Shown here in pieces: positions 4,652 through 7,744 of a DNA stretch of 64,000 bases. Position numbers and translations under genes: made by a program. The notes under the pieces were generated by a model, which was not told where the DNA came from, made no database searches, and worked only from the letters and a program-made list of their open reading frames with translations. Source of the DNA: Acidimicrobiales bacterium (lineage in GTDB: Bacteria > Actinomycetota > Acidimicrobiia > Acidimicrobiales > SZUA-35); NCBI GenBank assembly GCA_028285495.1, contig JANQPB010000027.1, forward strand, positions 1 through 64,000, read 5' to 3'. Position 1 is the first letter of the stretch, and every line of letters begins with the position of its first letter.

Positions 4652-6184
4652 TCAGCGCTCGAGCCGGATGTCGAAGCGGTCCCGGATGGCGGCGTCGACG
4701 GCAGGCGGGATGTGGGCCGGGTGGTGCTCGGCCAGAGCGGCGACGACGTAGTCGTTGGCCCGGTCGACGGCGGTGGCGGCCCCGGCGTCGATCCAGTCAT
4801 CGGGGCTGAGGCGGTCACCGACCCTGGGGTAGGTGTACTCGGACTGCATGAGGGCCAGCGTCTGGTCGTTGCCGAGGAAGTGGCCGGGTCCATCGACCAC
4901 CTGGCGGATCACCTCGCCCGAGAGGGTCTCGGCCGTGACCTCGATGCCCCGGATCGAGCGGTTGATGGCCCCGAGCATGTCGTTGTCGACGACCATCGCC
5001 TCGAGCGAGAAGGCCAGGATCGATGCCAGCATCCCGGCCGACTCGTAGACGAGATTGGCCCCGGCCTGCCCGGCCAGGCTGACCGTCAGCGCCTTCTCGT
5101 GACCGGCCTGCATGTCCGGCAGCTTCGAGTCGCTCATGCCGGCCGCCACGCCGGACGGCAGGCCGAGCCAGTTGGCCAGCTGGGCCGCTGCGGCGTTCAT
5201 CACCGCCTCCTCGCCGCTGCCGCCACTCATGGCCCCGGTCCGGAGGTCCGACACGAACGGCCAGAGTCCCATCACGCAGGGATGGCCGGGGGCGAGCAGG
5301 TTGACCGTGGTCAGCCCGGCCAGGCACTCGGCCAGGGCCTGGGTCAGCGAGCCGGCGAGCGCCGCCGGCGAGGTGGCGCCGGCCTGGCCGGCCGACAGCA
5401 GGCAGACCGGCATCCCGGCCAGGACCTGGGCCACCAGGACCTCGGCCGACTCCTCGGCGAACCGGAGCGGCGGCACGACGAACGTGTTGTTGGCCAGCAG
5501 GAACGGTCGCTCGGCGAACCGTCCCGGCCGGCCGAGGATGTGGTCGAACATCTCGACCGAATCGGTGACGGCTTCGGCGCTGAAGTAGGCGCTCCCGACC
5601 GGCTTGGTCGTGCCGGCGACGGTGGCGTAGACGGTGTTGATGTCGAGCAGGTAGGGATCGTCGAGCTCGCGAGCGACGACCGGGCGCACGAAGAAGTGGA
5701 GGTGCTCGAGGGTGTCGTAGAGCCGGCTGATGTCGTGGAGGTCGGCCAGCGTCGAGTCCCGGAAGCGACTGGTCTCGTGATCGAGCACCGAGAGGGCGGC
5801 CCCGCCCGTGCCGAAGTAGACCTTGTCCGCCGAGACGTCGAGGCTCTTCGACTCGTCGAGCGCGTGCCAGGTGAACCCGCCGGCCGCCGTCTCGACCGCC
5901 CGCTCGACGACCGACCTGGGGTAGCGGAGGCGTCCGTGCTCGTCGACCCGGCCGCCGGCCGCGGTGACCACCTCGACGAAGGTCGGGATGGCCGAGGCCA
6001 TGCCGATGTCCTCGAGCAGGTCGAGGGCGGTCTCGTAGATCGCGGTCATGTCCGACTCGGTCAGGGGCCGGTAGGCGCCACCGGCCAGGCCCGGCCGGAC
6101 GGCGCCGCCGTCGACCCTGGCCTGTCGCTCGGCCAACCGGGCCGCACGGCCGCCGGCTCGCCGGCGGGATCCTGCCTCGCGCAT
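4652..6184 (-). CDS. MttB-family (trimethylamine methyltransferase-like) protein, non-pyrrolysine
   Basis: This 510-residue protein belongs to the MttB superfamily (COG5598): a TIM-barrel enzyme that moves a methyl group from a quaternary or tertiary amine to a corrinoid protein. The family pattern is visible in LTESDMTAIYETALDLLEDIGM at the N-terminus, FGTGGAALSVLD, and LLAPGHPCVMGLWPFVSDLRTGAMSGGSGEEA in the core. No in-frame TAG interrupts it, so it is one of the non-pyrrolysine members; characterised relatives act on glycine betaine or similar compounds. Length is normal. TACCGT sits 6 bases before the ATG, supporting this start and a leaderless transcript. No corrinoid protein gene is adjacent, so a complete methyl-transfer operon is not shown here. 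Confidence 0.82.
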   Translation of the reverse strand: MREAGSRRRAGGRAARLAERQARVDGGAVRPGLAGGAYRPLTESDMTAIYETALDLLEDIGMASAIPTFVEVVTAAGGRVDEHGRLRYPRSVVERAVETAAGGFTWHALDESKSLDVSADKVYFGTGGAALSVLDHETSRFRDSTLADLHDISRLYDTLEHLHFFVRPVVARELDDPYLLDINTVYATVAGTTKPVGSAYFSAEAVTDSVEMFDHILGRPGRFAERPFLLANNTFVVPPLRFAEESAEVLVAQVLAGMPVCLLSAGQAGATSPAALAGSLTQALAECLAGLTTVNLLAPGHPCVMGLWPFVSDLRTGAMSGGSGEEAVMNAAAAQLANWLGLPSGVAAGMSDSKLPDMQAGHEKALTVSLAGQAGANLVYESAGMLASILAFSLEAMVVDNDMLGAINRSIRGIEVTAETLSGEVIRQVVDGPGHFLGNDQTLALMQSEYTYPRVGDRLSPDDWIDAGAATAVDRANDYVVAALAEHHPAHIPPAVDAAIRDRFDIRLER

Positions 6185-6337: not shown

Positions 6338-6513
6338 TGAAGCAGTCCGCCTGCGGTGACGTCGTGCCCGGTTGCGATGCCACCCTCGTGTGCTCCCCGG
6401 AGGAGGAGATCATGGCCCTGGTGCCCTCACCCGCTGCCGCCGATCACGGCCGGACCGAGATCCCGACCGAGCTGGTCGACCGCGTCGTCGGCCACATCCC
6501 CCGGGTTGGCTGA
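6338..6513 (+). CDS. DUF1059 small protein
   Basis: This 58-residue protein matches the DUF1059 family: MKQSACGDVVPGCDATLVC, an acidic EEEI segment, then DHGRTEIPTELVDRV. Three cysteines (residues 6, 13, 19) and a conserved His hint at metal binding, but the function is not known. A strong Shine-Dalgarno AGGAGGT lies 9 bases upstream, unlike the leaderless starts common in this window. Its last eight bases overlap the first possible start of the EAL gene, which suggests coupled translation. Confidence 0.8.
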
Positions 6514-7450
6514 CGTCGCCGCCGAGTCGCTGGCCCCGGCCGGGCCCCCGGCCGAGCTGGTCGAGCGGGCGACGGCCGGTCACGGGCTGCGTTCGGTCGT
6601 GCAGCCGATCGTCGACCTCAGCCGGTTGACGATCGTCGGGTACGAGTCGCTGACGCGCTTCGACGCCGTCGACGGCCACAGCTTCGGGCCCGATCGGTGG
6701 TTCGGTGCGGCCAACGCGCTCGGCATCGGGGCCCGCCTCGACGCCGCGGCGATCGACCTGGCGCTGACCCGCAGGCCCGACCTCCCCCCGAACTGCTTCC
6801 TCACCGTCAACGTCGACCCCGACTCCCTGCTCGACGCCATCGTGCTCCAGGCGTTCGCCGGCCACGGCCACCTCGGTGGCGTCGTGATCGAGCTGACCGA
6901 GCACCGACCCTGGAGCTGGGCTGCGGTCCAGCCCGCCGTCGACCGGCTGCGGGCCGCCGGCGCCCGATTCGCCGTCGACGACGCCGGCGCGGGCCACTCC
7001 GGTCTCCAGCAGGTACTCGACCTTCGCCCGTCGATCATCAAGCTCGACCGCTCGCTCATCGCGGGCATCGACCGTGACGAGGCCAAGGTCGCCCTCGTCG
7101 AGATGCTCGGGCTCTTCGCCAGCCGGATCGATGCCTGGGTCCTGGCCGAGGGGCTGGAGACGGAGGCCGAGATGGCGCGGATCATGGCCCTCGAGGTGCC
7201 GCTGGCCCAGGGCTACTACCTCGGTCGGCCGGAACCGACCTGGGCGGTGCTCGACCCCGCCGTCGTTGCCGACCTGCGGGAACGGGTCCGACCGGACCGC
7301 AACACCCTGTTCCGGCTGATCGAGCCGGTGGCCCCGATCGACGCCGATGCCGACGCGGCGATGGTCTGGTCGGACGGCTCGGACCCGTGGCTCCCGGTCG
7401 TCGACGCCGACGGCCGACCGACGGGTCTGGTCGACGGTGAGGCGCGCTGA
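6506..7450 (+). CDS. EAL-domain cyclic-di-GMP phosphodiesterase, probably frameshifted before its second CBS repeat
   Basis: The 314-residue product carries a full EAL domain. Key motifs are YESLTR (EAL variant), NVDPDSL, ELTEH, FAVDDAGAG (DDFGTG variant), IKLDRSL, AEGLET and AQGYYLG. The usual metal and substrate residues (Glu, Asn, Glu, Asp-Asp, Lys, Glu, Gln) are all present, so c-di-GMP hydrolysis is plausible. After the EAL domain comes one CBS half (DPWLPVVDADGRPTGLV), then a TGA. The missing CBS half follows at once in the -1 frame. The start is uncertain: TTG 6506 overlaps the DUF1059 stop and is the first plausible codon; longer readings give an out-of-frame-looking Arg/Ser/Pro stretch. 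Confidence 0.72.
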   Translation: MADVAAESLAPAGPPAELVERATAGHGLRSVVQPIVDLSRLTIVGYESLTRFDAVDGHSFGPDRWFGAANALGIGARLDAAAIDLALTRRPDLPPNCFLTVNVDPDSLLDAIVLQAFAGHGHLGGVVIELTEHRPWSWAAVQPAVDRLRAAGARFAVDDAGAGHSGLQQVLDLRPSIIKLDRSLIAGIDRDEAKVALVEMLGLFASRIDAWVLAEGLETEAEMARIMALEVPLAQGYYLGRPEPTWAVLDPAVVADLRERVRPDRNTLFRLIEPVAPIDADADAAMVWSDGSDPWLPVVDADGRPTGLVDGEAR

Positions 7451-7650
7451 CCGGAGAGCTCAAGCCCGGCCTGGTGGCCAACGTGCACACCGACCCGGTC
7501 GACGTCGCTCGCCGGATCGCCACGGGCGCGACCGAGCCGGGGCGCCCGGTCATCGTCACCGACAACGCCGGTCGCTACGTCGGCCTGATCACGCTGCGAC
7601 GGTTGCTGAGCGACGTGGCCGACCGGACGGTCCGGGCACCGACCGGCTGA
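7441..7650 (+). pseudogene. displaced second CBS half of the EAL protein
   Basis: This frame, shifted by one base relative to the EAL gene, encodes GELKPGLVANVHTDPVDVARR, then a strand-turn-strand RPVIVTDNAGRYVGLITLRRLL. That is the second half of a CBS pair and continues the first half that ends just before 7450. Removing or adding one base near 7441-7450 (a GCGCGC run) would fuse the two. It could be a real mutation, a sequence error, or a programmed -1 shift. GTG 7474 could start it separately, but there is no good ribosome site. Confidence 0.6.
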
Positions 7651-7721
7651 GTCCGGGCGGCGGGGTCGACCGGCTGAGTCCGGGCGGCCGGGTCGTCCGA
7701 CTGAGTCCGGGCGGCGGGGTC
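7641..7721. repeat. three 27-bp tandem repeats
   Basis: A 27-base unit beginning GACCGGCTGAGTCC is present at 7641-7667, 7668-7694 and 7695-7721 with few changes, and a partial fourth unit follows. The unit is a multiple of three and contains the stop codon of the CBS frame (TGA) in each copy. It fills the gap between the EAL-CBS gene and the convergent membrane protein gene. Confidence 0.85.
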
Positions 7722-7744
7722 GACCGGCCGGGCCCGCCGGCGGG

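Follow-up and report, generated by a model that had tools for sequence, protein, structure and literature searches.

The split signalling gene found in the window (the whole stretch of DNA analyzed, 64,000 nucleotides from an Acidimicrobiales bacterium) is an ordinary gene in broken form, without evidence for recoding. It is a common EAL-CBS gene, encoding a predicted c-di-GMP phosphodiesterase, in which one small indel-type difference affects a short GC tract of the assembled sequence. If this difference is a sequencing or consensus error, an assumption that we consider to be about an even bet, the cell would make one protein carrying the EAL domain and the complete CBS module, and the organism itself would presumably lack the difference seen in the assembly. 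Pending examination of the reads, a broken EAL-CBS gene is therefore a better annotation than a recoded one.

An EAL-CBS gene spread over two frames

The features discussed here are collected in Table 1. The EAL domain of the first ORF was detected by Pfam with an E value of 4.3e-40 (138-139.5 bits for a curated cut-off of 31.3). All its motifs are kept (YESLTRF, TVNV, IELTEH, VDDAGAG, IKLDR, AEGLET and AQGYY), the reference being the list ExL, N, E, DD, K, E and Q, which we take to be the EAL signature. Across 12 aligned relatives, the columns holding these residues show little or no variation, and the residues were also aligned with those of PA3825. The initial statement that this domain retains the residues needed for c-di-GMP hydrolysis thus appears to hold on the basis of these alignments, and nothing in the sequence argues against such an activity.

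Table 1. Features of the split gene and its surroundings in the window, and single-frame relatives used for comparison
Feature	Coordinates	Strand	Evidence or remark
MttB-family methyltransferase	4652-6184	-	PF06253, E 1.4e-105
DUF1059 small protein gene, 58 aa	6337..6513	+	PF06348, E 2.4e-14, 53.7 bits, cut-off 21.1
First ORF (EAL, linker and first CBS half), 314 aa	6506..7450	+	putative TTG start; TGA 7448-7450
EAL domain match	6566..7231	+	PF00563, 139.5 bits
Sole stretch where a frame change keeps both halves readable	7441..7450	+	stops 7438-7440 and 7448-7450
Second CBS half, -1 frame relative to the EAL ORF	7441..7650	+	Pfam CBS, L040 alignment, coding score
L040, Acidimicrobiales MAG			single frame; 59% identity in the EAL part
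L041, MAG labelled Mycobacteriaceae			single frame
L042, Herbiconiux moechotypicola			single frame

The frame change is confined to ten bases because the frame of the second half has a stop codon just upstream of them and the EAL frame has its own stop at their end; beyond the junction, the second frame remains readable up to its stop at 7648-7650. The GC stretch that had been pointed out at the junction is indeed found there, as a GCGCGC tract (7442-7447) lying within the only workable bases. A -1 change corresponds to the net loss of one base or to the net gain of two.

The second stretch matches the Pfam CBS profile with an E value of 0.0011 and 19.6 bits, under the curated cut-off of 24; for comparison, the corresponding relatives give 28.4 bits (L040), 23.9 bits (L041) and no match (L042). 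It shares 49% identity with residues 309-363 of L040 (E 8e-17). Its codon-usage score (27.8 for 7447-7647 in the second-half frame) lies within the range of 755 genuine 67-codon windows of the host genome (mean 32.6, standard deviation 10.1, 5th percentile 14.8), and the highest score obtained for 1510 off-frame windows is -4.2. The second half is real coding sequence, far beyond chance. Coordinates, coding score and alignment with L040 agree with the original prediction that the EAL ORF is followed at once by the second CBS half in the -1 frame. Codon-usage scoring revealed no sign of decay in this half; therefore, the lesion is either very recent or a consensus error.

The first CBS half did not match the Pfam CBS profile when searched alone. 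It was assigned by alignment with the relatives, by the fold model of L040 and by a weak profile match to MgtE; these three lines of evidence favor the earlier view that this half follows the EAL domain in frame. The two halves, which would be carried by one polypeptide in a CBS pair, sit here in two frames.

The unbroken relative L040 was modelled with AlphaFold2 from 12 aligned sequences (mean pLDDT 87, pTM 0.78), and structural matches place its EAL domain at residues 2-250. Past the linker, the model displays two strand-strand-helix units (about residues 289-310 and 318-371, secondary structure as we read it), as expected for a CBS pair. The family profile also hits a CBS protein of solved structure (positions 312-373, E 6.2e-9) and, weakly, MgtE (positions 256-376, E 2e-4). 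The fold search with the L040 model returned no CBS structure among the matches listed; EAL structures fill this list, so that the search informs on the EAL domain only. Since the junction of the window falls between the two C-terminal units of L040, approximately at residue 308, a product ending at 7447 would, according to the model, retain the EAL domain and lose the second unit.

Relatives at the junction and the search for recoding signals

A scan of genome contigs provided six loci (L040-L045). The EAL domain and the whole C-terminal module are encoded in one frame in all three genome-contig copies that carry both (L040, L041 and L042); L043 has a frame break inside the EAL domain and, its contig being as long as G173:C4 (740245 bases), was counted only once, as G173, L044 ends after the EAL domain and L045 is not a relative. 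An order-level search, done on 298 genomes with a profile built from both halves and three relatives, retrieved 87 of them at E values up to 1e-40, mostly through EAL-only matches. Window excluded, 18 rows extend at least to profile position 368, and each of them crosses the junction (profile position 329) without a change of frame. For G244, the one TGA noted is the terminal stop of the gene. A further row, G159:C12 (profile positions 26-343, with internal stops), was excluded from the copies reaching the C-terminal module. Overall, none of the 21 other copies (18 order-level rows and three genome-contig copies) is broken at the junction of the window, and three are broken elsewhere, once each and each at its own place: near the start of the EAL domain in G241 and within this domain in G173 and G278. 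The corresponding frame-broken loci are L097 for G241, L098 and L043 for G173, and L096 for G278. Judging from these sequences, such scattered breaks look like indels arising by chance, whether real or technical, rather than like a conserved site of recoding.

The original prediction had left three options: a sequence error, a real truncation that might remove nucleotide regulation, or a programmed frameshift. The first two both stand, whereas the last one is disfavored by the single-frame state of all 21 copies, by the heptamers around the junction and by RNA folding. Lineage-specific programmed -1 frameshifting would yield a short and a long product, and the abutting of the two frames within ten bases and the good conservation of both halves could be taken in its favor. 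However, none of the five in-frame heptamers around the junction is a slippery X_XXY_YYZ heptamer, and pseudoknot-free folding revealed no RNA structure beyond that of dinucleotide shuffles in two downstream stretches or in one stretch across the junction (z of -0.03, 0.39 and -0.13 for the three stretches). The other copies do without any frameshift at this place, and we regard this mechanism as very improbable.

Alternatively, the second CBS half could be translated separately, through reinitiation coupled to the stop codon and taking place there or shortly beyond it, and then pair with the first half. A CTG (7447-7449) overlaps the stop as CTGA and a GTG (7474) lies in the right frame 24 bases past this stop, in a host genome that includes gene pairs separated by gaps of 22-26 bases. 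However, this GTG is the first ATG, GTG or TTG codon of the second frame, and starting from it would remove residues that are conserved in the relatives; CTG starts are rare in bacteria, and no relative shows a split at this place. Separate translation is thus very unlikely. Taken as a whole, a lineage-specific non-canonical recoding or reinitiation at the GC tract, giving either phosphodiesterases with a truncated and with a complete CBS module or two pairing pieces, has only a slight chance of being correct.

Sequence error or fresh mutation

The reading that we favor, an error in the sequence of an ordinary EAL-CBS gene, agrees with the single-frame state of all 18 order-level rows and all three genome-contig copies through the junction and with the lack of decay of the second half. 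Furthermore, G241, G173 and G278 are singly broken at other places, as would be expected from random errors, and all four broken genomes, including that of the window, are assembled in at most 45 contigs (45, 40, 10 and 1). Only four of the 12 genomes with exclusively unbroken copies are in this range (1, 1, 1 and 20 contigs), the others having 50-460 contigs. This contrast (one-sided Fisher test, p = 0.038) is post hoc, its threshold being taken from the genome of the window itself, and the link between a low contig number and long-read sequencing is a guess. Cooley and Wright, whose study does not cover MAGs, report assembly artefacts behind many bacterial pseudogenes and advise to check frameshifts on raw reads (PMC11017572), and a study of long-read MAGs describes an excess of frameshifts caused by nanopore errors (PMC8103633).

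The host genome (6.75 Mb in 45 contigs; 71.7% G+C in the sampled stretches) was surveyed for other frame breaks on 464 kb, i.e., the window and 20 stretches of 20 kb that we chose from nine contigs, with a filter based on G+C by codon position to determine the gene strand. This survey, which detected 103 of 120 simulated single-base losses, revealed 60 frame switches on the same strand whose gap does not exceed six bases, 20 of which were flagged as devoid of a nearby start codon. Only the junction of the window could not be explained as a gene pair, the other 19 flagged switches being judged without homology. Among these 19, L077:7309 sits inside a PadR-like frame, L078:12174 separates two proteins, ten look like the normal end of one gene and start of the next, and the seven remaining ones have a start codon at most two bases from the upstream stop; a further frame break may possibly have been missed among them. 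A generally indel-rich assembly is thus unsupported by this survey. In the same 464 kb (window and L076-L095), CTAG and CGCG are under-represented (observed/expected ratios of 0.28 and 0.49), which might reflect restriction or repair.

The absence of general frame breakage in the host assembly argues against an error. Moreover, GCGCGC is rare (65 occurrences in 464 kb) and is also a natural slippage site. A real and very recent frameshift mutation, leaving a 314-aa EAL protein without the second CBS half, perhaps deprived of regulation or stability, and an undecayed remnant, is a serious possibility, which we consider slightly less likely than an error. It would be consistent with the low number of frame breaks elsewhere in the genome, with plausible slippage at the GC tract and with the conservation of the EAL motif residues. 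In addition, the genome contains 17 EAL matches, so that the loss of one of them would be tolerable, and three other copies of the family are broken in other genomes. However, the undecayed state of the second half implies that such a mutation would have to be very young. A search of 12 genomes of the same genus with the second half retrieved the window alone (one of 12), and the best match of the EAL part in this genus has only 36% identity, with GAF-EAL proteins devoid of CBS; therefore, these genomes offer no close orthologue for comparison and no second copy from the species that would confirm a mutation. If the lesion is real, it would provide a small natural experiment on the effect of the CBS module on the EAL enzyme.

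Neighbourhood and related systems

The DUF1059 gene ends with a stop codon overlapping the TTG start of its EAL neighbour, an arrangement suggestive of translational coupling. A motif scan of 17 loci, including the window, found DUF1059-like ORFs in five of them, a minimum given the short flanks (L009, a second copy of the window, was excluded, and L043 and L058 belong to one genome); the identity of the window ORF is supported by Pfam and that of the relatives' ORFs by the motif scan. Besides the window, the five loci are L040, L047 and L049, where the ORF directly precedes the EAL gene, and L054, where it lies downstream; L096, outside this count, also has one downstream. Two papers naming DUF1059 were found in the literature searched. 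The DUF1059 protein and the c-di-GMP phosphodiesterase could possibly form a functional pair. The MttB-family gene adjoins this pair on the opposite strand. At the other side, a 27-bp tandem repeat (7640-7728, 3.3 copies, 90% matches) starts over the end of the split gene and includes its stop codon.

Among the papers listed on EAL and CBS domains and on c-di-GMP in acidimicrobia, none deals with this EAL-CBS protein in its title or in the abstract shown. With EAL-domain c-di-GMP phosphodiesterases (PF00563), the first ORF shares a full-length domain match and the motif residues, as far as can be judged from its sequence. YkuI of Bacillus subtilis (2w27) likewise associates an EAL domain with a C-terminal module; its EAL fold superimposes on the L040 model (Z 23.5, rmsd 3.0, 243 aligned residues), but its C-terminal module is PAS-like, unlike the CBS module considered here. 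Further counterparts come from Acidimicrobiales and other actinobacteria: the EAL-CBS proteins L040, L047, L048, L041 and L042 have the same domain order as the gene of the window but are encoded in one reading frame instead of two.
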